In this document: positions 2,989-63,700 of the stretch, piece by piece | How the letters are laid out: each line of letters starts with the position of its first letter | Position numbering within the stretch: the stretch's first letter is position 1 | NCBI RefSeq assembly: GCF_000820765.1 | Contig: NZ_CCYH01000016.1 | Coordinates: forward strand, 1 to 64,000 | Reading direction: 5' to 3' | DNA length: 64,000 bases | From: Candidatus Soleaferrea massiliensis AP7 | Lineage (GTDB): Bacteria > Bacillota > Clostridia > Oscillospirales > Ruminococcaceae | Program-made: the position numbers and the translations under genes | Notes under the pieces: generated by a model | Told to the model about the DNA's origin: nothing | The model's database searches: none | What the model saw: the letters and a program-made list of their open reading frames with translations, nothing else

Positions 2989-3858
2989 TCAGTTGTCGTC
3001 GGTTTTGAAATAGACCGGCAGCAGGATGGCAAGCGACAGCACCGTGATGACGATGCCGGTGACCAGCAGAGCGGTAAAGATCGTGCCGAAAACCGCCGCC
3101 AGATAGGTGTACAGCGGTTCAAACCGAATCGGGATGCGGTAGATCATATCGTTTGCAAAGACAAAGGCGGAGATCAGGATGCAGCTTCCGCCGCCGGCTG
3201 TCAGCGCGAACAGGTCATATCGAATCGACCGATGTGCTGAACGGTTCACGACGTGGATCAGCACGATAAACAGGATGAACAGCAGCAGCAGTACGCTTCC
3301 GCCGATATAAAGCGGCGTCTCGAACTTCGGCAGAGTACGGTAGACCTTCAGCATCGCGGAGGGCTGCAGGGAATCCACAAATTTCCGGCCGTATTGCTCG
3401 ACGATCTCTTCCAGATTCTGTTGGACATCGGCTGTGATGGGAATCCCTTTTGCCGTAAGCTCTTCCTTGGCCGCCTCGGTCAGAGCGGACTTGAAGGCGT
3501 CGATATCGGCGTCATACACCTCGCCGTGCAGCGTCGCTTCAATCGACGCGTCGATGTCCTTGCTGACCGTTTCATTGCGCAGGGTGGTTTTGACGGTCTC
3601 TTCGTCAATGCCCAGCCCCAGCCCAATCTCGTTGAGCCCGGAGATGATGGCATTTTTAAAATTTTCGGTGTAATGGGTACCGTCCATGACCGATTCATGG
3701 AAGCTGGTGTTGGCAGCCAGAGAAGCCCCCAGCAGGCAGAGGATCGCGCCTGTCAGGCACAGATAGGCGAGGAATGAGAAGATACCGGAAACTATCCCCT
3801 TGGACCTGGAAACGGGCTTTGCCATAAACGGCGCATTGGTATAAGATCGCTGCAGCAT
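2989..3858 (-). CDS. Membrane protein of the sortase cluster, function unknown
   Basis: No family was recognised for this 289-residue protein. Visible are one hydrophobic segment near residues 25-50, a soluble and probably extracytoplasmic region of about 120 residues rich in Asp/Glu/Lys, and three further hydrophobic segments in the second half. The GTG at 3867 overlaps the ribosome site, so the ATG at 3858 with GGAGG 8 nt upstream is preferred. It lies 15 nt downstream of the sortase gene and is probably co-transcribed with it. A role as accessory or assembly partner of the sortase or its substrate is inference from position only. Confidence 0.8.
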   Translation of the reverse strand: MLQRSYTNAPFMAKPVSRSKGIVSGIFSFLAYLCLTGAILCLLGASLAANTSFHESVMDGTHYTENFKNAIISGLNEIGLGLGIDEETVKTTLRNETVSKDIDASIEATLHGEVYDADIDAFKSALTEAAKEELTAKGIPITADVQQNLEEIVEQYGRKFVDSLQPSAMLKVYRTLPKFETPLYIGGSVLLLLFILFIVLIHVVNRSAHRSIRYDLFALTAGGGSCILISAFVFANDMIYRIPIRFEPLYTYLAAVFGTIFTALLVTGIVITVLSLAILLPVYFKTDDN

Positions 3859-25160: not shown

Positions 25161-25272
25161 CGTCAGGTTATCAACCGATGGGCGGCTCATGTGGTATAAG
25201 GAAATACCATTGACAAGGATTGTCAGGAATGATAAGATAAAGTGGAAACGGCGCGAAGCGGGGGAGTATGTC

Positions 25273-27387
25273 ATGACAGAAAAAACAGAAGATATCCAAC
25301 AGGTTTCTCTGAAAAGCCTGCTGCATACATTCAAGACCAGCGGCGACCGGTACTGCTTTATATTGGGATCCGGCGCATCGGTGGAATCGGGAATCCCAAC
25401 CGGTCAGCAGCTTGCAAAAAAGTGGTATCAGGAGCTGCAGGAAAGATATACCGAGCAGGAGATCGCTCAATGGCAGGAAAAAATCGGTTTTACTGGCGGA
25501 AGTAAGGCGGCATACAGCAAGCACTACTTTGACATCTATCAGTTCCGGTTCCAAAACAGCAAGAGAGAGGGAAACCGGGCACTGATCGAAAGTATGGAGG
25601 ACGCACATCCGAGCAGCGGATACTACCCACTGACAAGGCTGATGTCTGAAACCCGGCACAATCTGGTCATCACCACGAACTTTGACAGCATGACCGAGGA
25701 TGCCCTGTTTATCTACACCGGCAAAAAGCCGATGCTGGTGGGCCATGAGGCGTTGGCACAATATCTGGAACCGACGATCAACCGCCCCACCGTTTTAAAA
25801 ATTCATCACGACCTCTTTTTGGATCCGCAGAACACCAGAGAACAGATTGAGCAGGAACTGTGCGGCGAGTGGCGGGAAGCTTTGATACAGGCATTCAGAT
25901 TCTTTACGCCGATTGTCATCGGCTATGCGGGCGGCGACCACACCTTAATGGGTCTGTTAAGGGATCCGTCTGTCTCTATCGAAAACATCTTTTGGTGTTA
26001 CCGGGATGCCGATGAGTTGACCGAGAATGAAGACATCCGATCGATTGTGAAGCAGAGAGACGGAAAGTTTGTTCAAATCAGAGGTTTTGACGACATGATG
26101 TTCCGTCTTGGCATGCTGTATGAATATGAAAATCCCGGTGAGCGCCTTCGTAACGAAGCAGAGAACCGTTGTAACATGTATAATGCTCAAATTGCAGAAT
26201 TTGAGCAGGAATTGAACGAGCGAATTGAATTAGATAAAGATGATCTTGACGCTCACAGTTCCAAGGCATATATTCTTTTACAGGATGGTAAGTACGAAGA
26301 AGCCGTTCAGGCTTATACGGAGATTATTGAGCAGAATCCTAATTATGTAGTGGCTTATTTTTATCGAGGAAATGCTTATTGCAATATTGAACAGCATAAC
26401 AAAGCGATAGAAGATTACAGCAAAGCGATAGCATTGGATCCGCAAAATGCAGTCGCATTTAATAATCGAGGAAATGCTTATTGCAATATTGAACAGCATA
26501 ACAAAGCGATCGAGGATTACAGCAAAGCGATAGCATTGGATCCGCAAAATGCAGTCGCATTTAATAATCGAGGAAATGCTTATTGCAATATTGAACAGCA
26601 TAACAAAGCGATAGAAGATTACAGCAAAGCGATAGCATTGGATCCGCAATATGTAGCCGCATTTAATAATCGAGGAGTTGCCTATCGCAATATTGAACAA
26701 TATGACAAAGCGGTCGAGGATTACAGTAAAGCGATAGAATTGGATCCGCAAAATGCAGCCGCATTTTATAATCGAGGAATTGCTTATGATGAAATGAAAC
26801 AGTATAATAAAGCGGTCGAGAATTACAGCAAAGCGATTACATTGGATCCGCAAAATGCAGTCGCATATTATAACCGAGGAAATATCTATTGCAATATTGA
26901 ACAGTATAACAAAGCGATCGAGGATTACAACAAGGCGATAGAATTGGATCCGCAAAATGCAGCCGTATTTAATAATCGAGGAAATGCTTATTGCAATATT
27001 GAGCAATATGACAAAGCAATAGAGGATTACAGCAAAGCGATAGCATTGGATCCGCAAGATGCAGCCGTATTTAATAATCGAGGAGTTGCTTATTGCAATA
27101 TTGAGCAATATGACAAAGCAATAGAGGATTACAGCAAAGCGATAGCATTGGATCCGCAAGATGCAGCCGTATTTAATAATCGAGGAGTTGCCTATTGCAA
27201 TATTGAGCAATATGACAAAGCGATTGAGGATTACAGCAAAGCAATCGAACTTGATCCACAAAATGCAGGCGCATTTTATAATCGTGGAGTTACCTATAAA
27301 AAAATAGGGAAACGCAAAAAAGCTAAAATGGACTTTGCTATGGCGAAAAAGCTTGAGCAACAAGATATAACTTACAAACAGAATTAA
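25273..27387 (+). CDS. SIR2-like domain protein with C-terminal TPR array
   Basis: This 704-residue cytoplasmic protein has residues 20-290 forming a SIR2-like NAD-binding domain: GSGAS (32-36), TTNFD (134-138), KIHHDLF (176-182) carrying a probable catalytic His, and VIGYAGGD (215-222). About eleven TPRs of 34 residues follow (325-700, NxxGxAYxxxxxxxKAIEDYSKAIxLDPQ). SIR2 domains fused to repeat or sensor modules act as NAD-depleting effectors in several anti-phage systems, and the TPRs could bind the trigger or a partner. It is probably a single-gene defence system (inference). It stands alone beside an IS-like remnant. The ATG at 25273 follows GGGGAG; an upstream ATG at 25189 has no ribosome site. 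Confidence 0.85.
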   Translation: MTEKTEDIQQVSLKSLLHTFKTSGDRYCFILGSGASVESGIPTGQQLAKKWYQELQERYTEQEIAQWQEKIGFTGGSKAAYSKHYFDIYQFRFQNSKREGNRALIESMEDAHPSSGYYPLTRLMSETRHNLVITTNFDSMTEDALFIYTGKKPMLVGHEALAQYLEPTINRPTVLKIHHDLFLDPQNTREQIEQELCGEWREALIQAFRFFTPIVIGYAGGDHTLMGLLRDPSVSIENIFWCYRDADELTENEDIRSIVKQRDGKFVQIRGFDDMMFRLGMLYEYENPGERLRNEAENRCNMYNAQIAEFEQELNERIELDKDDLDAHSSKAYILLQDGKYEEAVQAYTEIIEQNPNYVVAYFYRGNAYCNIEQHNKAIEDYSKAIALDPQNAVAFNNRGNAYCNIEQHNKAIEDYSKAIALDPQNAVAFNNRGNAYCNIEQHNKAIEDYSKAIALDPQYVAAFNNRGVAYRNIEQYDKAVEDYSKAIELDPQNAAAFYNRGIAYDEMKQYNKAVENYSKAITLDPQNAVAYYNRGNIYCNIEQYNKAIEDYNKAIELDPQNAAVFNNRGNAYCNIEQYDKAIEDYSKAIALDPQDAAVFNNRGVAYCNIEQYDKAIEDYSKAIALDPQDAAVFNNRGVAYCNIEQYDKAIEDYSKAIELDPQNAGAFYNRGVTYKKIGKRKKAKMDFAMAKKLEQQDITYKQN
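26365..27300 (+). repeat. 102-bp tandem repeats encoding TPRs
   Basis: Units in phase with CGAGGAxxTxCC/T start at 26365 and recur every 102 bp (26467, 26569, 26671, and so on to about 27283). The first three are nearly identical at DNA level, and GGATCC recurs in almost every unit, pointing to recent duplication or homogenisation. Confidence 0.9.
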
Positions 27388-43583: not shown

Positions 43584-45116
43584 ATGAAGCATCAGAATGT
43601 TTTGGTTTTGGATTTTGGCGGACAATACAACCAGCTGATTGCACGGCGTGTCAGGGAATGCGGCGTGTACTGCGAAGTGCATCCGTATAACATGCCTGTC
43701 GGGGAGATCAAAAAGATGAACCCGATCGGCATCATCTTTACCGGCGGACCGAACAGCATCTATGCGGAGAATTCCCCGTCCTGTGATCCGCGGGTATTCG
43801 AGCTGGGCATTCCGGTGCTTGGCATCTGCTACGGCATCCAGTGTATGGCGCATGCGCTCGGCGGAACCGTACAGTCGGCCCGTGCGCGCGAATATGGAAA
43901 GACCAATACGGTTTACAATACAGACAGCGCACTGTTCTCCGGCCTGCCAAAAGAGGGCGTGTCCTGGATGAGCCATACCGATTACATCGAGACGCTTCCA
44001 GCAGGCTTTGAAGCGGTCGCGCACACAAACGAGTGTCCGACGGCCGCCATGCAGCACGTAGAGCGGATGCTCTACGGTGTACAGTTCCATCCGGAGGTCA
44101 TGCACACCAAAAACGGCATGCAGATGCTGCACAACTTCCTTTATAAAATATGCGGCGCGAAGGGCGATTGGTCGATGCAGGACTACAAGCAGACCGCGAT
44201 CCAGGACGTCCGCAAAACGGTAGGAGATGGCAGGGTGCTCCTCGCGCTCTCGGGCGGCGTGGACAGCTCGGTCGCGGCCGAGCTGCTTTCCCAGGCGGTC
44301 GGCAGCCAGCTCACCTGCATCTTTGTGGATCACGGCCTGCTGCGCAAGAACGAGGGCGACGAGGTCGAACAGGTCTTCGCGAACAGCGGCATCCATTTTG
44401 TGCGCGTGGACGCGAAGGAACGTTTTTTGCAGAGACTTCGCGGCGTATCCGACCCGGAAACCAAGCGCAAGATCATCGGCGAGGAGTTCATCCGCGTGTT
44501 CGAGGAGGAGGCCAAAAAGATCGGAACCGTCGATTTCCTCGCGCAGGGCACCATCTATCCGGATGTCATCGAGTCCGGCGCGGGCGACGCGGCGGTCATC
44601 AAGAGCCATCACAACGTCGGCGGACTGCCGGATTATGTCGATTTCAAGGAGATCATCGAGCCGCTCAGACTGCTGTTCAAGGATGAGGTGCGAAAGCTCG
44701 GCGAGGAGCTTGGACTGCCGGATTATCTGGTCTGGAGACAGCCGTTCCCGGGTCCGGGTCTGGCCATCCGCGTCATCGGCGATATCACCGAGGAGAAGCT
44801 TGAAACGCTGCAGGATGCGGACGCCATCTTCCGCGAGGAGATCGCGAACGCAAAGCTCGACCGGGACATCCATCAGTACTTTGCAGTGCTGACCTCGATG
44901 CGTTCGGTCGGCGTCATGGGCGACGGACGCACCTATGACTACACATTGGCCCTGCGCGGCGTCACCACCAATGATTTTATGACCGCGGACTGGGCGAAGA
45001 TCCCGTATGAGGTGCTGGAAAAGGCCAGCAGCCGCATCGTCAACGAGGTGAAGAACATCAACCGCATCGTGTATGATATCACGAGCAAGCCGCCGGCTAC
45101 GATCGAGTGGGAATAA
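43584..45116 (+). CDS. guaA: GMP synthase (glutamine-hydrolysing), complete copy
   Basis: This 510-residue enzyme converts XMP to GMP. The class I glutamine amidotransferase domain (1-190) has the nucleophile Cys82 in LGICYGIQ and the dyad His169/Glu171 in QFHPEV. The ATP pyrophosphatase domain has [10 protein letters not shown] (221-229). The dimerisation domain ends in the conserved TIEWE. AAGGGAAGGT precedes the ATG. The last 13 bases (45104-45116) are repeated at 52695, marking the insertion site of a mobile element that leaves the coding sequence intact. Confidence 0.97.
45104..45116 (+). repeat. attL core at the 3' end of guaA
   Basis: CGAGTGGGAATAA includes the guaA stop codon. The identical 13-mer occurs at 52695-52707. 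Confidence 0.8.
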
Positions 45117-45265
45117 GAAACGCAGCCCGCAAAGCCGCATAAACAGGCGCTTTGTGGAGGCGAACCCCGCCGTTTGATAGCAGATTGATAGCAGCCGCCA
45201 TTTTACCGCTTACTTTTTTCACTCCCGTGTGACAAGCGGTTTACAGGTGAATATCCTTATCCATG

Positions 45266-45308
45266 AAAAAAGGTCTTGCCGACTTTCGCAGTTGGCAAGA
45301 CCTTTTTT
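45266..45308. terminator. Bidirectional terminator inside the left element end
   Basis: AAAAAAGGTCTTGCC and GGCAAGACCTTTTTT form a 15-bp stem. It serves guaA read-through on the plus strand and the XRE gene on the minus strand. Confidence 0.9.
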
Positions 45309-45315
45309 GCTATTT

Positions 45316-45843
45316 TCAGGGTTTTGATTGCTTCTTGAAATCTTCTATCAGCATATCGCTCAATCCTTGTGAAAGCACCCTTGCCCGCCGTTGCGTGGTA
45401 TCAAATTCGGGATACCTGTACCGCCACTGGTCGTATTCCTCTTTGGTTATCTCCCCCGCTTCCAGCTTCGCGGCCTGCTGCCGCCAAGCGTCGAGCATCT
45501 TAAACATTTCCTCATAGGTGCGTCCTTTGGCCTTATCCAGCCGGATACAGAGTTCCCCGTCAATCTCCCCTATTTTCAGCCCGCGTAAATCTTCCAGCGC
45601 AAATAATGTGTGCATCAGGCCGACGTTGCTGTCGATGTCGGGAATGTCAAGAGCCTGCGGCGACACGTCCAGCGTTTGAGCAAGGGCGGCGGTCAGGTCG
45701 GCCTTTGGCGTTCGGGTGCCGGATTCGTACTGCGCCATGCGCACGTCGGCGGTCTTTTCTGGAAAGCCCACCGCACTGCCAAGATATTTCTGCGTCATGC
45801 CCCGCAGGTTTCTAAAAAAATGAATCCGTTCGCCAATTGCCAT
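45316..45843 (-). CDS. XRE family regulator of the mobile element
   Basis: This 175-residue protein has an N-terminal helix-turn-helix (GERIHFFRNLRGMTQKYLGSAVG..RMAQYESGTRTPKADLTAALAQTL). A second half of unknown fold is rich in charged residues. The ATG at 45843 has GGGAG 8 nt upstream. It is transcribed away from the excisionase-integrase genes with a shared AT-rich intergenic region, the typical arrangement of an element repressor. Confidence 0.88.
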   Translation of the reverse strand: MAIGERIHFFRNLRGMTQKYLGSAVGFPEKTADVRMAQYESGTRTPKADLTAALAQTLDVSPQALDIPDIDSNVGLMHTLFALEDLRGLKIGEIDGELCIRLDKAKGRTYEEMFKMLDAWRQQAAKLEAGEITKEEYDQWRYRYPEFDTTQRRARVLSQGLSDMLIEDFKKQSKP

Positions 45844-45959
45844 TATCGCCACTCCCATTCTACATTTCCTGTCGAATATAGTATAGCATATCTGTTTAAG
45901 TATAGTCAAGAGAAAACTAAGCAAAAAAGTTAAGAAATTCTCTTGCAAACCCCTTGACT

Positions 45960-46200
45960 TAAACTTTAATGTTTAGTATAATGGAATTAAGCAAATATGC
46001 TTAGAGAACCTTGAAAATTGAATGACCGTCCGAATGGGATACCCTGCCGGGGAAGTAGCGCCAAGATGCCGAAAGGCGAAGCGTACCAAGGCAGAGAGAA
46101 CGCCGCAATATTTGGGGCAGGAACGACAATCGGAGGAAGCGGCAAACTCCAATCAAGCCCAAAGAGGGTAATTTAACAAAAAATGGAGGAGATAACACAA
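45960..46200 (+). promoter_or_regulatory. Leader of the excisionase-integrase operon
   Basis: An AT-rich promoter region (TTGACTT near 45954 and TATAAT-like TAGTATAATGG near 45974) is followed by about 180 nt of untranslated leader with several GC-rich short stems. Similar GAACCTTGAAAATTGAATGA leaders precede genes of Clostridial conjugative elements. Confidence 0.55.
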
Positions 46201-46401
46201 ATGGCTGGAAAAATGTTTATGCGCGTGGAAGAAGTGGCTGAGGAGCTAGGCGTTTCCGTGGCCTATGCCTACAAGCTGATTCGCTCCATGAATGAGGAAT
46301 TGAAGAAAACGGGCTGCATCACCATTTCAGGCCGGATTGACCGGAAATTCTTCTATGAAAAATTCTATGGCACACGGGGCCAAAGCGAAAGGAGTTGCTA
46401 A
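46201..46401 (+). CDS. Excisionase-like small DNA-binding protein
   Basis: This 66-residue protein has a MerR/excisionase-type helix-turn-helix (MRVEEVAEELGVSVAYAYKLIRSMNEELKKTG). It ends with a basic segment, ISGRIDRKFFYEKFYG, of the type that contacts DNA arms. GGAGGAG precedes the ATG. The integrase follows 1 nt after its stop, as usual for xis-int pairs in Clostridial elements. Confidence 0.85.
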   Translation: MAGKMFMRVEEVAEELGVSVAYAYKLIRSMNEELKKTGCITISGRIDRKFFYEKFYGTRGQSERSC

Positions 46402-46402
46402 C

Positions 46403-47479
46403 ATGGCGGCTTTCAAAAATAAGGACAACGGCATATGGTATGTCCAGTTTCGTTATACCGACTGGAAAGGAGAACGGCAGCAGAAGTTGAAGCGCGGTTT
46501 CCCCACCAAGCGGGACGCGCTGGCGTGGGAACGGGAATTTCTGATGCAGAAGCAGGCCGACATCAATATGACGTTTGAAAACTTCGTCCAGCTCTACGAA
46601 CGGGACATGAAGCCCAAATTGAAGCTGAACACATGGCTGACGAAAGAGAGCATCATTCAGAAGAAAATCCTGCCCTACTTCAAAAGTCGGAAGCTGTCGG
46701 AAATCTCCGCCAAGGACATTATGGACTGGCAGAACGAGATGCGGGAACTTTCCGACGAAAGCGGTAAATCCTACTCCCCGACCTATCTGAAAACCATACA
46801 TAACCAGTTGAGCGCCATTTTCAACCACGCGATCCGCTACTACGGCCTGCAAATCAATCCAGCGGCAAAGGCCGGAAACATGGGCGTGGAGGAACGGCGG
46901 GAGATGTTGTTCTGGACAAAGGACGAATATCTGAAATTTGCCGACGCCATGATGGATAAGCCCTTGTCCTATTATGCGTTTGAAATGCTCTACTGGTGCG
47001 GTATCCGTGAGGGGGAACTGCTTGCCCTGACCGCCGCCGACTTTGATTTCCAGGCGGAAATGGTTTCCATTAACAAATCGTATCAACGCTTGAAAGGGCA
47101 GGACGTGATTACCACGCCCAAGACCAAAAAGAGCAACCGCGTTATTAAAATGCCTGAATTTCTCTGTGAGGAAATGCAGGACTATTTGAAGATGTTTTAC
47201 AGCGCCGGGACAGATGAACGTATCTTCCCCATCAGCAAGCACTATCTGAAACACGAGATGGAACGAGGCTGCAAGGCAACCGGCGTCAAGAAAATCAGAA
47301 TCCACGACCTCAGACATTCGCACATCTCATTGTTGATTGATATGGGATTCACGGCGCTGGCGATTGCCGACCGGGTGGGTCATGAAAACATCGACATTAC
47401 TTACCGATACGCCCATCTGTTCCCCACGCGGCAAACAGAGATGGCGGACAAACTGAATACAGAACGGAAAGGGGCTTAA
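46403..47479 (+). CDS. Tyrosine-type site-specific integrase
   Basis: This 358-residue recombinase has an N-terminal arm-binding region (residues 1-55), a SAM-like core-binding domain (55-165) and a catalytic domain. The catalytic domain has Arg in YWCGIREGELLAL, His-x-x-Arg in IHDLRHSHISLL, His in VGHENIDIT and the nucleophile Tyr in the following TYRYAHLFP segment. AAAGGAG lies before the ATG at 46403. It should catalyse integration at the 3' end of guaA between the 13-bp repeats. Confidence 0.96.
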   Translation: MAAFKNKDNGIWYVQFRYTDWKGERQQKLKRGFPTKRDALAWEREFLMQKQADINMTFENFVQLYERDMKPKLKLNTWLTKESIIQKKILPYFKSRKLSEISAKDIMDWQNEMRELSDESGKSYSPTYLKTIHNQLSAIFNHAIRYYGLQINPAAKAGNMGVEERREMLFWTKDEYLKFADAMMDKPLSYYAFEMLYWCGIREGELLALTAADFDFQAEMVSINKSYQRLKGQDVITTPKTKKSNRVIKMPEFLCEEMQDYLKMFYSAGTDERIFPISKHYLKHEMERGCKATGVKKIRIHDLRHSHISLLIDMGFTALAIADRVGHENIDITYRYAHLFPTRQTEMADKLNTERKGA

Positions 47480-47481
47480 CT

Positions 47482-47808
47482 ATGTCGCTCAAAAACAGGG
47501 ACAACAAGAATCGCTGGCGCAACAAAACGGTCGCGTTCCGGGTGTCGCCGGAAGAAGATGAACAAATCGAGATTGCTGTCCGGCTTTCCGGCCTCACCAA
47601 ACAGGACTACATCACACGGCGTCTGCTGTGCCGTGATGTGGTGGTGCAGGGTAATCCAAGGGTTTACAAGGCCCTGCGCGACCAGCTCGCCACTGTGCTG
47701 GAAGAACTGCGGCGCATCGGAACCGGTGAACCGGTCAGCGATGAACTTTTAGAAACCATTGAACTGATTACAGTCACGATGCAGGGCATGAGGGAGGATT
47801 GCGAATGA
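47482..47808 (+). CDS. MobC-like mobilization accessory protein
   Basis: This 108-residue protein has an RHH-like N-terminal part (NKTVAFRVSPEEDEQIEIAVRLSGLTKQDYITRRLL) and a helical C-terminal half. It resembles relaxosome accessory proteins that bind oriT. It starts 2 nt after the integrase stop and overlaps the next gene by 4 nt. Confidence 0.8.
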   Translation: MSLKNRDNKNRWRNKTVAFRVSPEEDEQIEIAVRLSGLTKQDYITRRLLCRDVVVQGNPRVYKALRDQLATVLEELRRIGTGEPVSDELLETIELITVTMQGMREDCE

Positions 47809-48959
47809 TTATTACCGAACAAGCAAAAACGACTGCCCTTGTTCCGTCTGTTGGCGCAGGCGGAGGACAGCCGATTCCGAAAATCACTGAATCCAGTATA
47901 TCAGAGACGTTTCAAGAAAACAATCCCTCAGATGAAAACATTGACGAAATTTTGCGGCAGATGCAGCGATACAATGACCCGGCATATCTGCACACGGTTT
48001 CCATGAACGAGCTGTACGAAAATATCTATCAGAGCAGGCCGCCAATTATCGACGGCCTGCTCCATGCGGGAACCTATCTTTTTGTAGGTGCGCCCAAGGT
48101 GGGCAAGTCGTTCCTCATGGCGCAGCTTGCCTATCATGTCAGCACCGGGCTTTCCCTTTGGAAATACCACGTCCATAAAGGAACTGTCCTCTATCTGGCG
48201 TTGGAGGACGATTACAGGCGCTTGCAGGAACGGTTATATCGTATGTTTGGAACGGACAGCACGGAGAACCTGCACTTTGCCATCTGTGCAAAGCAGCTCG
48301 GCGCTGGCCTCGACGAACAGCTTGAAAAGTTTGTCCGGGAGCATAGCGACACAAAGCTCATTATCATTGATACCCTGCAAAAAATCCGGGAGGCGGGTGG
48401 CGATAAGTTCAGCTATGCTAACGATTATGAAATCGTCGGGAGGCTCAAACAGATCGCTGATCGCAGCGGCGTCTGCCTCCTGCTGGTACATCATACCCGG
48501 AAACAACAGGCGGACGATAAGTTTGACATGATTTCCGGCACCAACGGCCTGCTCGGCGCTGCGGACGGTGCGTTTCTGCTTCAAAAGGAAAGACGGACGG
48601 ACAATGCCGCCGTACTGGATATTTCGGGGCGCGACCAACAAGACCAGCGGCTTTATCTCACAAGGGACATGGAGAGGCTGGTGTGGCAGTTGGAACGGAC
48701 AGAAAATGAGCTGTGGAGAGAACCGCCCGACCTGGTACTGGAAGCCGTGGCCGCGTTGGTGACATCGGACAGGCCGGAATGGAGTGGGACAGCCACGGAC
48801 TTAACGGCGGCGCTGCGAGCCGACATGAAGCCTAACGCGCTCGCCATGCGGCTGAATATCCGGGCGGGCAAGCTACTGAACGATTATCATATCCAGTATG
48901 CCAGCGTCCGAACCCACGCTGGCAGGAACATCAAGCTCACGCTTTTGCCCCAAGCGTGA
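47805..48959 (+). CDS. RepA-like RecA-fold ATPase
   Basis: This 384-residue protein resembles hexameric replicative helicases of the RSF1010 RepA type. The Walker A motif is VGAPKVGKSFLMAQLAYH, and Walker B is in KLIIIDTLQKIR. LLLVHHTRKQQ and ISGTNGLLGAADGAFLL are sensor-type segments. GGAGG lies 7 nt before the ATG at 47805, inside the end of the MobC-like gene. Directly after its stop lies a cluster of GTGACGG iteron-like repeats, so it may drive replication of the excised circle (inference). Confidence 0.85.
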   Translation: MIITEQAKTTALVPSVGAGGGQPIPKITESSISETFQENNPSDENIDEILRQMQRYNDPAYLHTVSMNELYENIYQSRPPIIDGLLHAGTYLFVGAPKVGKSFLMAQLAYHVSTGLSLWKYHVHKGTVLYLALEDDYRRLQERLYRMFGTDSTENLHFAICAKQLGAGLDEQLEKFVREHSDTKLIIIDTLQKIREAGGDKFSYANDYEIVGRLKQIADRSGVCLLLVHHTRKQQADDKFDMISGTNGLLGAADGAFLLQKERRTDNAAVLDISGRDQQDQRLYLTRDMERLVWQLERTENELWREPPDLVLEAVAALVTSDRPEWSGTATDLTAALRADMKPNALAMRLNIRAGKLLNDYHIQYASVRTHAGRNIKLTLLPQA

Positions 48960-49039
48960 CGACCGTGACGGCTGTGACGGCCTTATGGGGAACGGGTACG
49001 GTGTTGGAAACATCGTCACGGTCGTCACGGCTGTCACGG
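48956..49039. repeat. Iteron-like GTGACGG cluster, candidate origin
   Basis: GTGACG occurs at 48956, 48965 and 48974 in direct orientation. Its complement CGTCACGG/GTCACGG occurs at about 49014, 49023 and 49033, giving a mirrored array around 48998. It lies just 3' of the RepA-like gene and before the relaxase. The rest of 48960-49250 has no gene apart from the 49188-49208 hairpin. Confidence 0.6.
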
Positions 49040-49187
49040 ACAAAAGTTTAGGCGGGGTACAGGGCGCCCTTTTCAAAGGGCGGCCCTGTTGGGGTGGTTG
49101 CCCGCAGGCAACAGGGGCAACGCCCCTATTCCCCCTCGGAGAGCGCAAGGGCGCTTTTGATGGCGTAGCTGTCAAAAGTGCTTTTGC

Positions 49188-49208
49188 GTTACTTTCGCAG
49201 AAAGTAAC
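49188..49208. repeat. Hairpin GTTACTTTC/GAAAGTAAC before the relaxase
   Basis: This is a 9-bp perfect stem with loop GCA, about 40 nt upstream of the relaxase start. It could belong to oriT. It resembles the second hairpin of the dispersed repeat at 31-270. Confidence 0.55.
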
Positions 49209-49250
49209 AAAGGCCGCCGCATCAGCGGCGAAAAAGGAGCGTGATAATGT

Positions 49251-50357
49251 TTGCGTAGGACAATCAGCGGTATGGTCGGGAAAGGTTCGCTGACCCACAA
49301 CAACCGCGATTTTATCGCGGAGAATATCGACCGCAGCCGAACAGCCGACAACATCACTTACTTGCATGAGGATTTACGCACTGTCTATACGGAACTGTTT
49401 GGCGCGGCGCTGGAACGCTATAACGCCAAACAGAAACGAAGCGACCGGAAAATAGCTGATTATTACGAGCATATCCGTACCGGCAAACAGGAGAAGCTAT
49501 TCCATGAAGTCATTTTCCAGATAGGCAGCGTCAAGAATACCGCTGTCGGAACGCCAGAGGGAGAGCAGGCCAAGGCGGTGCTGGACGAATTTATGTGCAG
49601 TTTTCAGGAGCGCAATCCCCATCTCCGCGTGTTCTCGGCCCACCTGCATATGGACGAAGCGACGCCGCATTTACATATCGACTTTGTCCCCTTTACCACC
49701 GACAGCAAGCGTGGATTGGATACGCGGGTTTCCATGAAAAAGGCGCTGGCGGCCCAAGGCTTCGAGGGCGGCAGCCGGGGCGACACAGAATTTAATCAGT
49801 GGATTAACGCAGAGAAACAGACGTTGGCGCAGGTCATGGAGCGTCACGGCATTGAGTGGGAACAGCTTGGCACACACAATGAACATCTGTCCGTTTTGGA
49901 TTTCAAAAAGCAGGAACGACAAGCGGAAGTCATGACGCTGGAACAATCCATTGCCAAACTGCAAAAGCAGCAAGTAGACATAAAGGCCGTCGAAAATATT
50001 GATGCCAAAAATGTCCCTCTTTCCTCTAAAGTTATGCTGGAACGGCAGGATTACCAAATGTTGCTGACAGCGGCGCAGAAATATGTCGTTCAAGAAAAGA
50101 AAAGTGGCAGACTGGAAAAGCTGCTAAAGGCCGCTGAAAAGACCATAGCGGACCTAAAAACAAAGCTGGCGGGCGTCATACGGGAACGCGATGAACTGAA
50201 ATCTATCCGTAGTCAGTTGAACGTTGGGAAGCTGGAACAGGAGAATTGTGAACTGCGCCAATCCGTAAAATGGTATCAGTCCGTACTTGAACAGCAAGGT
50301 CTTTCCCATATGTTTGGGAAACAAAAACAGCAACGGCAAGTGACACAACAGCGTTGA
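49251..50357 (+). CDS. MobV family relaxase (Pre/Mob plasmid recombination protein)
   Basis: This 368-residue protein has the MobV N-terminus TISGMVGKGSLTHNNRDF and EDLRTVYTELFG. The metal-binding histidine motif is SAHLHMDEATPHLHIDFVPF. The last 150 residues are coiled-coil-rich (TLEQSIAKLQKQQ, LEKLLKAAEKTIADLKTKL). It nicks at oriT to start transfer. The start is taken as TTG at 49251, 11 nt after AAGGAG, because family homology extends upstream of the first ATG (49272). Confidence 0.92.
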   Translation: MRRTISGMVGKGSLTHNNRDFIAENIDRSRTADNITYLHEDLRTVYTELFGAALERYNAKQKRSDRKIADYYEHIRTGKQEKLFHEVIFQIGSVKNTAVGTPEGEQAKAVLDEFMCSFQERNPHLRVFSAHLHMDEATPHLHIDFVPFTTDSKRGLDTRVSMKKALAAQGFEGGSRGDTEFNQWINAEKQTLAQVMERHGIEWEQLGTHNEHLSVLDFKKQERQAEVMTLEQSIAKLQKQQVDIKAVENIDAKNVPLSSKVMLERQDYQMLLTAAQKYVVQEKKSGRLEKLLKAAEKTIADLKTKLAGVIRERDELKSIRSQLNVGKLEQENCELRQSVKWYQSVLEQQGLSHMFGKQKQQRQVTQQR

Positions 50358-50669
50358 CGCTCTGCGGGCAATAAGGAGGCTATTTTTGGGGGTACAGGTC
50401 ATAGGATACAGCCCCCCCTTGATATGCTCTCGTGAAGTCGCATGGATACTGGCTTTGCAAGCGTCAAAAGCGTGACATTATGGCCAGTTGAACCCAAGGG
50501 GTTAAGGCAAGCCTTAACCCCTTGTCTGCTCACCAGCGCAGGCTCCAAGCCCTGTCAACGGCGGCGCGGTACGCGCCGTTCATCTCGACCGTTGACGGAG
50601 TTTGGGGCCTGTGCTAATTTTTTTGAATTTATGGTTGACAAATGAGCCAGAAGCGCATATACTAATCAT
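50358..50669. other. Intergenic region between relaxase and arsR
   Basis: No gene is present. It contains the hairpin at 50495-50524 and GC-rich short dyads around 50560-50600. Confidence 0.55.
50495..50524. terminator. Perfect hairpin after the relaxase gene
   Basis: CAAGGGGTTAAGGC and GCCTTAACCCCTTG form a 14-bp stem with a 2-nt loop. There is no long T run, so termination is uncertain. Confidence 0.6.
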
Positions 50670-50685
50670 ATCAAGATAATTTGAT
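50670..50685. promoter_or_regulatory. ArsR operator upstream of arsR
   Basis: ATCAA-N6-TTGAT lies 14 nt before the arsR start, overlapping the probable promoter. The same pattern recurs at 51058. Confidence 0.75.
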
Positions 50686-50698
50686 GTGAGGTGAACGC

Positions 50699-51016
50699 AT
50701 GGATACGACACATCAAAATAACGCCAAAGTGTTTAAGTCTCTCTGTGACCCAAAGCGACTTGCCATTCTGGAGCAATTACGCAGCGGCGAGAAGTGCGCC
50801 TGTGTCCTGCAAGAGCCGATGGACTTAACGCAGTCGGGCCTTTCCTACCACATGAAGATACTGTGTGATTCCGGCCTAGTGGTAAGCCGTCAAGAAGGCA
50901 AATGGACGCATTACCGATTAAGCGCAACCGGCAGGGAAAAAGCGGTGAATCTGTTGCTGGCTCTTACTACGCCTACTACGGAGCGGGAGGGTGATTATAC
51001 ACAACGCGATAAATAA
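50699..51016 (+). CDS. ArsR family metalloregulator
   Basis: This 105-residue winged-helix repressor contains FKSLCDPKRLAILEQLRSGEKCACVLQEPMDLTQSGLSYHMKIL. The CAC pair in helix 3 corresponds to the Cys-x-Cys arsenic(III) site of ArsR. QEGKWTHYRLS is the wing. GAGGTGAACGC precedes the ATG. It sits between two identical operator patterns and upstream of an ArsP-like permease, so it should repress the cargo operon until trivalent arsenic binds. Confidence 0.9.
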   Translation: MDTTHQNNAKVFKSLCDPKRLAILEQLRSGEKCACVLQEPMDLTQSGLSYHMKILCDSGLVVSRQEGKWTHYRLSATGREKAVNLLLALTTPTTEREGDYTQRDK

Positions 51017-51057
51017 ACGCCATCTGAATTGGGATGGCGTTTCCTTCAAGACAACAC

Positions 51058-51073
51058 ATCAAAAATTATTGAT
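51058..51073. promoter_or_regulatory. Second ArsR operator, before the permease
   Basis: ATCAA-AAATTA-TTGAT lies within a longer dyad: ACAACAC before and ATGTTGT after it. It is 35 nt upstream of the permease start, suggesting a second regulated promoter. Confidence 0.75.
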
Positions 51074-51107
51074 ATGTTGTCCAACAATTTGAAAGCGAGG
51101 TCTTGTT

Positions 51108-52109
51108 GTGGGTATTTGGGATTTCATTCAAAATCAAGTTCTTGGCATGAAGTGGCTGAATGAGCTAATCGGTTTGGGCCTCTCGGCCTTGGGGCTGGAC
51201 GTGGGCGGGCGCATCGGCGGCAGCGTCCAATTCTTTATTTATGATGTGCTGAAAATCACGATTTTGCTCTGTTTCCTGATTTTTGCTATTTCTTACATTC
51301 AGAGCTACTTCCCCCCGGAGCGAAGCAAACGTATTTTGGGGCGATTCCACGGTATTTGGGCGAATATCGTTTCCGCGCTGCTTGGAACGGTAACGCCGTT
51401 TTGTTCCTGTTCGTCTATCCCGCTGTTCATTGGTTTCACCAGCGCGGGGCTGCCCCTTGGTGTGACGTTCTCCTTTTTGATTTCTTCTCCGATGGTGGAC
51501 TTAGGAAGTCTGGTACTTCTTATGAGCATTTTTGGAGCGAAAGTCGCCGTCATTTATGTGGTGGTCGGCCTCATTATAGCCGTGGTAGGCGGTACGATTA
51601 TAGAAAAACTGCATATGGAAAAACACGTTGAAAGTTTTATTCTTTCTGCGGGCGGTGTGGATATTGAATCCCCTATCCTTACGAAGAAAGAGCGATTATC
51701 TTTCGCAAAAGAGCAGATGCTTGGAACATTCAAAAAGGTCTTTCCCTACATTCTGGTTGGCGTCGGTATCGGCGCGGTGATTCATAACTGGATTCCGGAA
51801 AGTTGGATTGAGGCCGTTTTGGGTAGCAACAATCCTTTTGGCGTGTTTCTTGCAACGTTGGTGGGCGTCCCTATGTATGCAGATATTTTCGGTACAATTC
51901 CTGTCGCGGAGGCTCTGCTTTCTAAAGGCGCACAGCTTGGCACAATCTTATCTTTTATGATGGCTGTCACCACTTTAAGCCTGCCGTCTATGATTATGCT
52001 TCGCAAGGCTGTCAAGCCGAAACTGCTTGCCCTGTTCATTGGCATCTGTACCGTTGGCATCATCATTGTCGGTTATCTGTTTAATGCGTTCCAATTCATA
52101 CTAATTTAA
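51108..52109 (+). CDS. arsP: ArsP-like permease, organoarsenical efflux
   Basis: This 333-residue inner-membrane protein has about eight to ten membrane segments. The family signature GTVTPFCSCSSIPLFIGF contains the Cys pair linked to trivalent arsenical transport. GVPMYADIFGTIPVAEALLSKGA is the matching repeat in the second half. Characterised ArsP proteins export trivalent organoarsenicals such as methylarsenite and roxarsone(III); other permeases of the family are uncharacterised. The start is GTG at 51108 with GAGG upstream. It is flanked by an ArsR operator and a thioredoxin-like gene. Confidence 0.85.
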   Translation: MGIWDFIQNQVLGMKWLNELIGLGLSALGLDVGGRIGGSVQFFIYDVLKITILLCFLIFAISYIQSYFPPERSKRILGRFHGIWANIVSALLGTVTPFCSCSSIPLFIGFTSAGLPLGVTFSFLISSPMVDLGSLVLLMSIFGAKVAVIYVVVGLIIAVVGGTIIEKLHMEKHVESFILSAGGVDIESPILTKKERLSFAKEQMLGTFKKVFPYILVGVGIGAVIHNWIPESWIEAVLGSNNPFGVFLATLVGVPMYADIFGTIPVAEALLSKGAQLGTILSFMMAVTTLSLPSMIMLRKAVKPKLLALFIGICTVGIIIVGYLFNAFQFILI

Positions 52110-52126
52110 AATAGGAGGTATTTTCG

Positions 52127-52471
52127 ATGGGACTGTTTGGAAAGAAGAAAGAGGAAACAAAAGGTTGCTGCTGTGGTGGCAACTGCAACGCTGACACAAT
52201 GGCGCAAGCGGAGGCTGCAAAGGCCGCCGCTGGTGTTAAGGTGTTGGGAACTGGCTGCGCGAAGTGTAACGCGCTGGAGGAAGCCGCCCGCGAGGCTCTT
52301 TCAGAATTGGGAATGGATACAACCATCGACCATGTGACAGACTTTACGCAGATAGCCGCCTACGGTGTAATGTCCACCCCGGCGCTGGTCGTAGATGGGA
52401 AAGTAGTGTCATATGGAAAGGTACTGAAAAAAGACGAGGCAAAAGCCCTTATCCAGCAAGTACGGAAGTGA
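52127..52471 (+). CDS. Thioredoxin-like small protein with Cys-rich N-terminus
   Basis: This 114-residue protein has an N-terminal extension, KGCCCGGNCN, with four Cys that could bind metal(loid). It is followed by a glutaredoxin/thioredoxin-like domain of the small archaeal-bacterial (TM0996-type) group, with active site GTGCAKCNALEEAA and cis-Pro region GVMSTPALVVDGKVV. It starts 17 nt after arsP with AGGAGG upstream. Such proteins often accompany these permeases, probably reducing or delivering the thiol-bound metalloid (inference). Confidence 0.88.
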   Translation: MGLFGKKKEETKGCCCGGNCNADTMAQAEAAKAAAGVKVLGTGCAKCNALEEAAREALSELGMDTTIDHVTDFTQIAAYGVMSTPALVVDGKVVSYGKVLKKDEAKALIQQVRK

Positions 52472-52694
52472 TGATAATATTGCATTGTGTCCTATAAGGT
52501 GCTATACTGAATCCAACAAAGACGCGCAAACCACCAGAATTAACGCGACAATTTTACCTTTGATATTTGGCCCCTGATAGATTTTTGATAGCAAAAGTCC
52601 CAAGACCCCTTGGGATAAGGATAACTGGTATCATATCCTATCAAATGGAATCAAATTCGCTAAACAAAATTGTTTAGAATCGACTTTTATTTGC

Positions 52695-52707
52695 CGAGTG
52701 GGAATAA
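52695..52707 (+). repeat. attR core
   Basis: CGAGTGGGAATAA is identical to the 3' end of guaA. The sequence beyond this point is very AT-rich and is not the ordinary guaA flank type seen elsewhere in the window. Confidence 0.8.
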
Positions 52708-52761: not shown

Positions 52762-53853
52762 ATGAATATCGAAAATTTAATTGAAAATGTAGATAGTCAA
52801 ATAATAAAAATAAGGACTAAGAGTTTGGATGTATCATTTAATGAGCTTTATGATATGTATCAAAATCAAGAATTAACCATTTCTCCAGATTATCAAAGAA
52901 TGTTTAGATGGGAAGAAGAGAAACAATCGCGTTTTGTAGAGTCATTAATACTGGAAATGCCAGTACCACCTATTTTCGTAATCGAAACTGATGATGGAAT
53001 TTATGAGTTAATTGATGGGTTACAAAGAATTTCTAGCTATCTTCATTTCAGAGGAGAGAAGCTAGGGAATAGCAAAGATGATTATTTGATTTTGCAGGGG
53101 TGCGATATTGTACCAGACTTAAATGGTTTAAAATTTAATGATTTACCTAAAGCACTCCAGATTAAGTTAAAACGAAGCTTTGTGCGAATGGAAGTTATAA
53201 AAAAAGAGAGTGAAATTGCCTTAAAATATCACATGTTTAAACGTTTAAATACGGGAGGTGAATTATTATCTGCCCAAGAAATAAGGAATTGCACAATAAG
53301 ATTATTAGGATCAAAAGCGATAGATTTTTTAGAAGATTGTAGTCAAAATAATAACTTTAAATCAGTAATAAGCCGAATTGGAGATGACCGTTTCAACATA
53401 CGAGATGACCAAGAGTTGGCATTAAGATTCTTTGCGATAAAAAATGATATTGATAACTATAGGTATCCAGTAACAGAGTATTTAACTAGATATCTTGAAA
53501 AAATGACTAAAGATGAAATTGCTTTTAATTATACAAAAGAACAACATATTTTTAAACATACATTTAAATTTATAAATGATCATTGGGGATGTGATGCGTT
53601 TTCTGGAAAAACTGGAAATGGAACAGTTCGAAATGAGTTTGTTTTATATTATTTTGACGGTATAGCTATTCCTTTAGCTACCATGATTGACGAGATTGAA
53701 AAATCTAATTGTATAGGTAAAATAGTAGAACGTATAAATGATCTTAAGTTTGGAGATGAAATTAAATCTTATAAAACTGGAAGCGTAAATGGAATTAAAA
53801 CTCGAATTCGATTGTTTACGGAGGGAGTGAGAGAAGTACTTGACGGCAAATGA
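52762..53853 (+). CDS. DUF262 (GmrS/ParB-like) family protein
   Basis: This 363-residue protein has a DUF262 N-terminal domain with SPDYQRMFRWEEEKQSRFVESLI (41-63), the Pro-rich MPVPPIFVIE and the catalytic-type loop LIDGLQRISS (83-92), corresponding to DGQQR. These resemble the ParB/Srx-like fold of GmrSD-type modification-dependent endonucleases, which use NTP. The C-terminal half lacks a recognisable HNH (DUF1524) domain. The gene is strikingly AT-rich. It overlaps the following HEPN gene by 14 nt, so the two form a unit. GAGGAG precedes the ATG. It lies 54 nt beyond attR. Confidence 0.85.
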   Translation: MNIENLIENVDSQIIKIRTKSLDVSFNELYDMYQNQELTISPDYQRMFRWEEEKQSRFVESLILEMPVPPIFVIETDDGIYELIDGLQRISSYLHFRGEKLGNSKDDYLILQGCDIVPDLNGLKFNDLPKALQIKLKRSFVRMEVIKKESEIALKYHMFKRLNTGGELLSAQEIRNCTIRLLGSKAIDFLEDCSQNNNFKSVISRIGDDRFNIRDDQELALRFFAIKNDIDNYRYPVTEYLTRYLEKMTKDEIAFNYTKEQHIFKHTFKFINDHWGCDAFSGKTGNGTVRNEFVLYYFDGIAIPLATMIDEIEKSNCIGKIVERINDLKFGDEIKSYKTGSVNGIKTRIRLFTEGVREVLDGK

Positions 53854-54523
53854 GCTGAGAGCAAATCTTGAGACTGAGCTTGCATGGCGTCAAGAAGAAC
53901 TAGCCTTTTTTAAAAACCAATTAAGTAATATTACTGATTCAGAAAAGGAACGTTATAGAAAAAGCTTGGTTCTCATTCTTTATTCACATTTTGAGGGTTA
54001 TGTTAAAATCAGTATACAAACATATATTCAACATCTTAACTCTCTTTTACTCAAACGAAGGGAGGTTAATACCAATCTATTAGTTACAGGAATGCACAAA
54101 GAGTTTCAGGCATATGATAATTTAGATAGAAAATGTGAATGTTTTAAAAGAGAATTACCCGAGGATTCTAAGTTGCATCGTTTTTTTAGAAGAGTTGATT
54201 TAATGGAAAAGATTGAAGAGTTTAAGTTGGAAATATTGTCAATAGATGATCAGATAATAGATATAGGATCAAATTTATGGTATATTGTATTACAAAAAAA
54301 TTTGTATAAAATCGGTTTGCCGGTCGATTTGTTTAAAGAATATAAAAGTGATATCGATGGTTTGGTGAATAGGCGTAATTCAATAGCGCATGGGAATTTT
54401 CGTTCTGGTGTAACAGAACAAGAGTACGAAAAGTGGGAAAGTAAGACAAATATAATTATGGAAGATATTACACGTTGCCTATATGACTATGCTAAGAATA
54501 AAAAATATTTGTCTAGTTATTGA
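53840..54523 (+). CDS. HEPN-fold protein, MAE_28990-like
   Basis: This all-helical protein of 227 residues carries an Rx4H motif near the C-terminus (R179-NSIA-H184 in VNRRNSIAHGNF). That is the catalytic signature of HEPN ribonucleases. An earlier helix contains LVLILYSHFEGYVKISIQTYI, as in HEPN proteins of the MAE_28990/MAE_18760 type, which are found beside DUF262 genes. The start is TTG at 53840 within the end of the DUF262 gene. Composition is as AT-rich as its partner. It is probably the toxic or RNA-cleaving effector of a two-gene defence system (inference). Confidence 0.8.
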   Translation: MTANELRANLETELAWRQEELAFFKNQLSNITDSEKERYRKSLVLILYSHFEGYVKISIQTYIQHLNSLLLKRREVNTNLLVTGMHKEFQAYDNLDRKCECFKRELPEDSKLHRFFRRVDLMEKIEEFKLEILSIDDQIIDIGSNLWYIVLQKNLYKIGLPVDLFKEYKSDIDGLVNRRNSIAHGNFRSGVTEQEYEKWESKTNIIMEDITRCLYDYAKNKKYLSSY

Positions 54524-61826: not shown

Positions 61827-61873
61827 GTATCGCATATCATCCGTTTGACAAAACAGATGATATGCGATACAAT
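61827..61873 (+). promoter_or_regulatory. Promoter of guaA paralogue embedded in a 15-bp dyad
   Basis: GTATCGCATATCATC (61827-61841) and its exact complement (61856-61870) flank a loop that contains the -35 TTGACA (61845-61850). The -10 TACAAT (61868-61873) lies at a 17-bp spacing and overlaps the right arm. This is a strong candidate operator. Confidence 0.75.
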
Positions 61874-61950: not shown

Positions 61951-63243
61951 ATGAAGCAGGACATGATCGTTATTTTAGACTTGGGCAGTACGGAGAACAC
62001 CACGCTGGCCCGTGCAATCCGTGATTTGGGCGTATACAGCGAGATCTATCCCCACGATATCACAGCAAAGGAGTTAGCGGCGCTCCCCAATGTAAAGGGC
62101 GTCATCCTGAACGGGGGAGAAAACCGTGTTGTGGACGGCACGGCAGTGGACGTCTGCGATGAAATTTACACGGCGGGCTGTCCGGTCATCGCCGTCGACC
62201 ATCCCGGCGCAAAATGTGAAGGAATCTTTGCATCGCTGCCGGATGAAGCGGCGCTCAAGGCATTTGTGTTCGACACCTGCGGCGCGCAGGCGAACTGGAA
62301 TATGAAAAACTTTGTTGAAGACCAGGTCGAGCTGGTCCGCCGTCAGATCGGGGATAAAAAGGTTCTCCTGGCGCTGTCCGGCGGCGTGGATTCCTCTGTA
62401 GTGGCCGCGTTGCTGCTCAAAGCGGTCGGCAGCCAGCTGGTCTGTGTCCATGTCAACCATGGACTGATGCGCAAGGATGAATCGGAAAACGTCGTCAAGG
62501 TGTTTCAGGATGAGCTGAAGGCCAATCTGGTCTATGTGGACGCCACCGACCGGTTCCTTGGAAAACTGGCGGATGTGTCCGATCCGGAGGAGAAGCGGAA
62601 GATCATCGGCAGTGAGTTTATCCGCGTGTTCGAGGAGGAGGCCAGAAAGCTCGACGGCATCGATTTCCTCGGACAGGGAACGATCTACCCGGATATCATC
62701 GAGAGCGGCACCAAAACGGCCAAGGTCGTCAAATCGCATCACAATGTGGGAGGCCTGCCGGAAGATCTGCAGTTCGAGCTGGTGGAACCGCTGAAACAGC
62801 TCTTCAAGGATGAGGTGCGCGCCTGCGGCGTGGAGCTGGGTCTGCCCGCGGAGATGGTCTACCGTCAACCGTTCCCGGGCCCGGGACTGGGTGTGCGCTG
62901 CCTGGGCGCCATCACCAAGGAGCGCCTGGAAGCGGTGCGGGAATCCGATGCCATCCTGCGCGAGGAGTTCGAAAAAGCTGGCCTTGACAAAAAGGTCTGG
63001 CAGTACTTCACGGTTGTGCCCGACTTTAAATCGGTCGGCGTCAAAAACAATGCCAGATGCTTTGAATATCCGGTCATCATCCGTGCGGTCAACACCGTGG
63101 ACGCCATGACGGCCACCATTGAACAGATTGACTGGCCTGTCCTGCTGAAGATCACCGACAGGATCCTGCATGAGGTGGAGCATGTCAACCGTGTGTGCTA
63201 TGATCTCTCACCGAAGCCGACCGCCACAATTGAATGGGAATAA
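61951..63243 (+). CDS. GMP synthase paralogue lacking the glutaminase active site
   Basis: This 430-residue protein is homologous to GuaA over its whole length, but its amidotransferase domain is about 80 residues shorter. The start aligns (MIVILDLGSTENTTLARAIRDLGVYSEIYPHD). Where the nucleophile loop GICYG should be there is VIAVDHPGAKCEG, and the segment carrying the catalytic His/Glu (FHPEV) is missing. The pyrophosphatase domain is complete, with ALSGGVDSS (141-149), GQGTIYPDIIESG and [10 protein letters not shown], and the end TIEWE is intact. It should use free ammonia, or another nucleophile or partner. The ATG at 61951 follows GGCGGAG. Confidence 0.9.
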   Translation: MKQDMIVILDLGSTENTTLARAIRDLGVYSEIYPHDITAKELAALPNVKGVILNGGENRVVDGTAVDVCDEIYTAGCPVIAVDHPGAKCEGIFASLPDEAALKAFVFDTCGAQANWNMKNFVEDQVELVRRQIGDKKVLLALSGGVDSSVVAALLLKAVGSQLVCVHVNHGLMRKDESENVVKVFQDELKANLVYVDATDRFLGKLADVSDPEEKRKIIGSEFIRVFEEEARKLDGIDFLGQGTIYPDIIESGTKTAKVVKSHHNVGGLPEDLQFELVEPLKQLFKDEVRACGVELGLPAEMVYRQPFPGPGLGVRCLGAITKERLEAVRESDAILREEFEKAGLDKKVWQYFTVVPDFKSVGVKNNARCFEYPVIIRAVNTVDAMTATIEQIDWPVLLKITDRILHEVEHVNRVCYDLSPKPTATIEWE

Positions 63244-63247
63244 AGAT

Positions 63248-63700
63248 ATGAATGGTACAACCTTGGCGCAGGGACAAGCGTTTGCAAGCAGAGCAGAGAT
63301 CAGCAAGCTGTTGGGAGGAAATGCTCAAAGCGGAATCACATTGGCAAGCAAAACGAAGGCAATCCTGTTGTTTAAAAATGAAAAGGAGCTGTATTCTGAT
63401 TATTTTTATCCAAAAGGTTCATATGACCATTGTATGTATACTGGGATTGGCAGGACCGGACATCAAGATAGCTTAGAGAATAAAATGTATGATCTAAATA
63501 CGGCGGTACTATCCCATAAGAAACAAGGGAGACCGTTGTTGTTATTTGATAAGAAGAACGGAAGTTATCATTTTATCGGAGAATATGAGTTGACCGAAAC
63601 GCATCAAAATATCCAGCCGGATGACAATCATTCACTTCGCAGAGTATTTGTTTTTCACCTAAAAAAAGTTTCAGACTTTATTGAACTGATTTTTGATTAA
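63248..63700 (+). CDS. Small protein resembling SRA-like/ScoMcrA N-terminal domain
   Basis: This 150-residue protein starts 4 nt after the guaA paralogue. RAEISKLLGGNAQSGITLASKTKAILLF, then DHCMYTGIGRTGHQDSLENKMYDLN and RPLLLFDKKNGSYHFIGEYELTET follow the order of motifs in SRA-like domains of ScoMcrA-type restriction proteins (GG..GI, YTGEGxxGDQ, LF..G.Y.GE). Those domains read modified DNA bases. No nuclease domain is attached and the ribosome site is weak. The gene is more AT-rich than guaA. Function as a reader of modified or phosphorothioated DNA is inference. Confidence 0.6.
   Translation: MNGTTLAQGQAFASRAEISKLLGGNAQSGITLASKTKAILLFKNEKELYSDYFYPKGSYDHCMYTGIGRTGHQDSLENKMYDLNTAVLSHKKQGRPLLLFDKKNGSYHFIGEYELTETHQNIQPDDNHSLRRVFVFHLKKVSDFIELIFD

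Follow-up and report, generated by a model that had tools for sequence, protein, structure and literature searches.

A small gene for an SRA-like protein starts a few nucleotides behind a short paralogue of guaA in the window, the 64,000-nt stretch of Candidatus Soleaferrea massiliensis AP7 (contig NZ_CCYH01000016.1) analyzed here. Does this tight arrangement mark a pair of cooperating genes, or did the SRA gene land at a guaA end that serves mobile DNA as an attachment site? An earlier note had raised both readings, and the following elements bear on them:

61845..61873, + strand: promoter-like TTGACA-17-TACAAT 5' of the short guaA, from a consensus scan only
61951..63243, + strand: gene for the short GuaA paralogue, 430 aa, with a full ATP-pyrophosphatase/GMP-synthase C-terminal part and a reduced glutaminase-like N-terminus
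62670..62699, + strand: weaker promoter-like site within the short guaA, the nearest + strand one before the SRA gene, from a consensus scan only
63232..63243, + strand: guaA-type core GAATGGGAATAA at the short guaA 3' end
63236..63239, + strand: GGGA within the core, 8 nt 5' of the SRA gene ATG, a possible ribosome-binding site judging from the junction sequences
63248..63700, + strand: gene for a stand-alone SRA-domain protein, an ORF of 150 aa with a predicted base-flipping pocket (Q27, Y49, D51, Y64)

The SRA reading frame proved to be as first described, with its ATG at 63248, 4 nt past the TAA of the short guaA (63241-63243), and its stop codon ending at 63700. Two findings set it apart from a chance ORF: a homologue in another genus shares 78-81% protein identity, and pN/pS is 0.15-0.25 in all six pairs of the four close homologues, with dS saturated. 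These four include the source copy; the other three are 64-79% identical to it, the Massilioclostridium coli copy being the closest, and all four are intact and end at the same place, at about 150 aa. The SRA gene is also AT-richer than its neighbors, strongly at three loci (G+C of 0.384 vs 0.568 for the adjoining short guaA in the source genome, 0.302 vs 0.446 for guaA in M. coli, and 0.399 vs 0.568 for the region at L056) and slightly at L055, where the contrast is smaller (0.366 vs 0.411). Low G+C and low pN/pS together point to a gene that was horizontally acquired and is functionally maintained under selection.

Taken alone, the protein sequence stayed below the cut-off of every Pfam family (DUF6697 scored highest, with 17.2 bits vs 23.9) and matched neither SAD_SRA (PF02182) at E 1 nor any NCBIfam or PADLOC model, and a PDB sequence search returned nothing meaningful either for it or for a profile of the two closest sequences. 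A ten-domain profile, which includes the SRA protein itself and its M. coli homologue, placed the SRA domain of ScoMcrA first in the PDB (5zmn, E 9e-9), with further matches to SUVH5 (3q0b, 3.8e-4) and TagI (6ghs, 6.7e-4). Five of the ten profile members match PF02182 when hits to E 1 are admitted, the strongest at 2.1e-8, and residues 2-144 of the 150 in the SRA protein align to the SRA fold. An AlphaFold2 model built with the four homologues is of low confidence (mean pLDDT 60.1, pTM 0.62). Its least certain parts are the loops expected to form the pocket (25-35, 43-57, and 66-81), all below pLDDT 50. Foldseek with this model again placed ScoMcrA first (5zmn, E 6.4e-6), all 17 matches at E up to 0.001 being chains of ScoMcrA, SUVH5, MspJI, or AspBHI. 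VIA gave ScoMcrA Z scores of 10.1 (5zmm_D, 125 aligned, rmsd 4.0) and 9.8. The first 45 rows of its ranking are SRA or SRA-like chains, an assignment that for four mouse lattice rows comes from the residue range only, and Lon follows at Z 6.2. The ScoMcrA-type resemblance that had been read from motif order is thus upheld by the two checks proposed for it, profile search and structure prediction, with ScoMcrA best in both (Z about 10 for the model), and profile and model together support an SRA fold of the ScoMcrA type.

In the account of SRA domains in PMC6212794, a modified cytosine is flipped into a pocket that contains a carboxylate, and the TagI pocket is given as Tyr55, Asp58, and Tyr67 together with loop residue Gln35. 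These four residues fall within stretches aligned by the ten-domain profile, and their counterparts by residue alignment are Y49, D51, Y64, and Q27, which are invariant in 4/4 close homologues; the Asp follows the first Tyr at +2 in the SRA protein, SUVH5, and ScoMcrA, and at +3 in TagI. We therefore predict that Q27, Y49, D51, and Y64 are the thumb and pocket residues, and the base-flipping pocket anticipated for the protein appears in the alignment with its two aromatic walls, its carboxylate, and its gap-filling thumb residue.

The SRA domains known from prokaryotes are mainly parts of modification-dependent nucleases, in which they provide the targeting half. The protein shares with ScoMcrA (SBD-SRA-HNH, Type IV; 5zmm, 5zmn), whose SRA domain is its best profile and structure match, a similar order of the GG..Q.GI and Y.D...Y.G.G..GDQ motifs, but unlike ScoMcrA it has neither a sulfur-binding domain nor an HNH nuclease (none by Pfam or PADLOC scans) and is only 150 aa long; nor does it carry the nuclease domain of TagI and other SRA-HNH endonucleases. 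In being a reader without its own nuclease it resembles the SRA domains of SUVH5 and UHRF1, eukaryotic 5mC readers to which the fold matches at Z about 7 to 9. Those domains are parts of large chromatin proteins, whereas the SRA protein is a whole protein by itself. Could it be what is left of an SRA-HNH endonuclease, the reader half after loss of the nuclease? Tblastn with the SRA protein alone (E up to 0.1) matched 13 plasmid records (best E 1e-8), and 7 of these 13, together with the sole phage record at E 0.1, are annotated as HNH endonucleases, as a remnant would lead one to expect. However, four intact homologues with one shared end point near 150 aa, purifying selection, and an invariant pocket are not what decay would leave behind, and the Ilyobacter polytropus relative, at 138 aa, also stands alone, so we judge the remnant reading distinctly improbable. 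The gene would instead be a nuclease-free, single-domain relative of the SRA domain in ScoMcrA-type (SRA-HNH) Type IV enzymes.

Close homologues are few. Searches with the SRA protein by itself found no close relative in genome contigs or viral contigs; profile A1 recovered the three other close homologues from genome contigs, and neither profiles A1 and A3 nor a DNA pattern found a close relative in viral contigs, where one relative was found for P0008 and none for P0004 or P0005 among the other SRA proteins. Profile searches of overlapping sets of 391 class genomes (profile A1) and of 396 family and 394 order genomes (profile A3) yielded no further close homologue, nor did a profile search of 146 genomes of the L055 family. 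Three matches were dropped: G000:C27 (E 0.088) as chance or distant, one in G062 (E 0.001) because it lies within a recF-like ORF, and one in G103 because of an internal stop. Distant relatives in G189, G243, G496, G083, and G018 were left out of the four. A literature search to which subscription papers were mostly out of scope found no report of a prokaryotic stand-alone SRA protein, either in general or in connection with genomic islands.

Is the SRA protein then a partner of the short GuaA, as one of the two readings proposed, for example in making or recognizing a modified guanine? In the source genome, the same strand and the 4-nt spacing suggest translational coupling. The short GuaA has PVIAVDHP where the canonical GuaA of the window has PVLGICYG, so that the GICYG cysteine motif is missing, and it may be an ammonia-dependent GMP synthase, judging from its sequence; its C-terminal part is that of an ordinary GMP synthase (NCBIfam guaA_Cterm, 455 bits vs a cut-off of 339), which does not favor a special partnership. 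The glutaminase cysteine motif is also absent from the short GuaA of genome G083. Distribution speaks most clearly. Across 60 other genomes, the short GuaA matched at full length in 10 (72-82% identity) and over the ATPase part only in 11 (67-80%), with a 52% relative in one more, and none of the 10 genomes with the full-length protein has the SRA gene (G071 is 85% complete, each of the remaining nine at least 95%). Among these genomes, G083 encodes a distant SRA-HNH protein on another contig. Conversely, the short GuaA precedes the SRA gene in only one of the four close homologues, that of the source genome: in M. coli the SRA gene follows a canonical guaA and the genome has only one guaA match, and the L055 and L056 ORF lists hold no guaA beside it. 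It is the genome-wide count of 0/10 that carries this argument, because downstream flanks were shortened by contig ends in 14 of the 30 guaA loci. By the account in PMC6212794, moreover, SRA pockets accommodate modified cytosine, and purines should not fit. We rejected cooperation on distribution, and a functional pair now seems hardly credible.

A better candidate for a pairing of reader and nucleotide enzyme was seen in two other genomes: at L010 (1082-2289) and L021 (1132-2308), an SRA-like protein is coupled to a NUDIX hydrolase, by a 4-bp overlap and a 4-nt gap, respectively. Both pairs adjoin a serine recombinase, and the L010 SRA-like protein matches SAD_SRA at E 1e-4, below cut-off.

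The other reading, insertion at a second guaA-type end, draws on the window's own canonical guaA, which is the target of a mobile element:

43584..45116, + strand: canonical guaA, an ORF of 510 aa
45105..45116, + strand: GAGTGGGAATAA core at the canonical guaA end, the left end of the element
46337..47479, + strand: tyrosine integrase of the canonical-guaA element, 1.2 kb behind guaA (Phage_integrase, E 2.8e-19)
52696..52707, + strand: second GAGTGGGAATAA core, the right end of the element

This integrative mobilizable element (45105-52707) lies exactly between the two GAGTGGGAATAA copies and contains the integrase, an AAA_25 ATPase, and a Mob_Pre relaxase, followed by permease-like and thioredoxin-like ORFs. 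The short guaA ends in GAATGGGAATAA, which differs from GAGTGGGAATAA by one base, as had been noticed earlier. The integration site of GIsul2 at the guaA 3' end is given as 5'-GAGTGGGA-3' in PMC9376610, and some streptococcal integrative mobilizable elements (IMEs) target guaA according to PMC5357655. Both guaA ends of the window carry a GIsul2-type core, and an att core is present at the SRA gene junction in both guaA-lodged copies, that of M. coli being GAGTGGGAATAA itself. Among 23 short guaA loci, 4 are followed by homologues of the window integrase, at 0.1 kb in L025 and at 1.1-1.3 kb in L028, L036, and L043; the last three distances resemble the 1.2 kb spacing in the window's own element. 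One of seven canonical guaA loci (L050) also has such a homologue behind it. These counts are lower bounds, as flanks extended to at most 1.5 kb and were shortened in 14/30 loci. In G083, a canonical and a short guaA stand in tandem (L025, 3-2805, the first ending at 1391 and the second starting at 1474), and integrase frames follow the short guaA.

The four close homologues occupy sites of the same type: two lie behind guaA, one behind tRNA-Met, and one behind a tRNA-3'-end-like stretch next to an integrase. The M. coli copy begins 4 nt past the stop of its canonical guaA, and the L055 copy (MAG contig JAAWDG010000010) lies 172 nt behind tRNA-Met. At L056 (MAG contig JAAWDI010000004), the copy lies 152 nt behind a 22-nt stretch (3797-3818) that has T-loop-like letters and CCA and itself stands 129 nt behind a tyrosine integrase gene; a one-mismatch copy occurs elsewhere in the L056 genome, and ARAGORN found no complete tRNA at either copy. 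We infer from its letters that this stretch is a tRNA 3' end. An empty-site comparison for L055 found a 91% identical aminopeptidase gene in G982 with different DNA behind it.

Insertion is better supported than cooperation with GuaA, since the SRA gene sits 4 nt past a guaA stop in two genera, behind different guaA genes, and since integrases lie behind the short guaA elsewhere. We infer the insertion from this pattern, because neither an integrase nor a second full att copy, the marks of guaA-element cargo, flanks the gene: the flanking ORF lists of the window, M. coli, and L055 hold no integrase beside it, and on the window side no second core copy with up to two mismatches occurs before 73600. 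In M. coli, same-strand core copies with two mismatches lie about 30 nt (within a hairpin) and 1.77 kb behind the SRA gene; the more distant one keeps 10 exact bases of the core and lies inside a transporter-like ORF. As there are 10 such copies in 19.5 kb where 5.8 are expected, and 19/200 shuffles reach 10, we gave them little weight as a second att. Words that recur around the SRA gene reach 10-12 bases at most (10-11 at L055 and L056). GIsul2 and the streptococcal IMEs with Tyr_3 integrases share the guaA 3' end as a target with the SRA locus (PMC9376610, PMC5357655), but unlike them the locus has no integrase and no second full att copy. That its guaA adjacency reflects a landing site of mobile DNA and not joint function is nonetheless the most likely interpretation.

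A bare gene at an attachment site, with neither a second full att copy nor an integrase, requires either loss of a carrier element or recombination at guaA 3' ends. In the latter case, homologous recombination between the 3' ends of canonical and short guaA would have brought the SRA gene to both guaA loci with no recombinase involved, a proposal that differs from arrival by an integrative element in route only. The tandem of canonical and short guaA in G083 would offer a substrate for it, and it would suit the closeness of the source copy to the M. coli copy. It leaves the two copies away from guaA unexplained, however, and integrase homologues use the same guaA ends, which makes this route doubtful to our minds.

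On balance, we think it probable, if well short of certain, that the gene encodes a horizontally acquired and selected solo SRA protein found at integration hotspots, whose role would probably be to read modified cytosine in defense or counter-defense. Our confidence is tempered because ARAGORN did not bear out the tRNA identity of the L056 stretch and because three of the four integrase homologues lie about 1 kb off the short guaA and not adjacent to it. The gene would have arrived horizontally, probably with an integrative element, and lodged exactly at the short guaA 3' end because guaA 3' ends, like those of tRNA genes, are integration sites of tyrosine-integrase elements. A separate promoter would not fit into the 4-nt gap, so that the SRA gene would probably be expressed by read-through from guaA. 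A consensus scan yielded 8 promoter-like sites vs 2.4 in shuffles and nothing resembling a terminator in the gap before the SRA gene. The core GGGA lies exactly 8 nt before the ATG in both guaA-lodged copies (source genome and M. coli) and would be a possible ribosome-binding site for a gene expressed in this way.

What might the protein read? A search for C5-cytosine methyltransferases (PF00145, E up to 1e-5) drew a blank in three carrier genomes and gave three matches in the fourth; such an enzyme occurs in 10 of 14 control genomes. Without PF00145 in these three carriers, a self-made 5mC mark is an unlikely target there, and foreign DNA is the more likely one in this small sample. The protein would probably recognize 5mC or 5hmC carried by incoming DNA of phages or plasmids, in a defense or counter-defense role independent of the GuaA enzyme. 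It might act by blocking, by recruiting a nuclease, or by countering restriction.

The SRA protein might still confer specificity on a split Type IV system, acting as one subunit while a gene at another place in the genome provides the nuclease; this is compatible with the hotspot location. In restriction enzymes already described, SRA domains direct the nuclease (PMC6212794), and the other guaA hotspot of the window holds a DUF262 (GmrSD_N) and HEPN pair (52762-54523). Against such a system, the four homologues share no neighbor, since their 600-nt flanks have nothing in common except, at the two guaA loci, the ends of the guaA coding sequences, and the ORF lists of the M. coli, L055, and L056 loci reveal none. 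A split system is thus unlikely in our estimate, and we rank it, with its unlinked nuclease, below a defense or counter-defense reader and above a remnant.

If a conserved reader-only protein is indeed kept under selection at hotspots, DNA-modification sensing would be put to use there without cutting; alternatively, a modular SRA reader would work with unlinked nucleases. A more speculative extension, which we hold only tentatively, is that a nuclease-free SRA family travels as a bare gene to attachment sites at guaA and tRNA 3' ends, is switched on behind guaA by the ribosome-binding site within the att core, and protects the host or the element without cutting, through binding to modified cytosine on incoming DNA. 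For operon-based function prediction, the guaA neighborhood counsels caution, as an operon-like gene order may reflect nothing but a landing site for mobile DNA.

Two further regions of the window deserve mention. The DUF262 gene (GmrSD_N, NsnA-like by PADLOC) and its HEPN neighbor at 52762-54523 lie just outside the right core of the element and are likely a defense pair, a second defense-type case beyond a guaA core. At 25189-27387, the sequence reads as a SIR2-like N-terminus followed by many near-identical TPR-like repeats.
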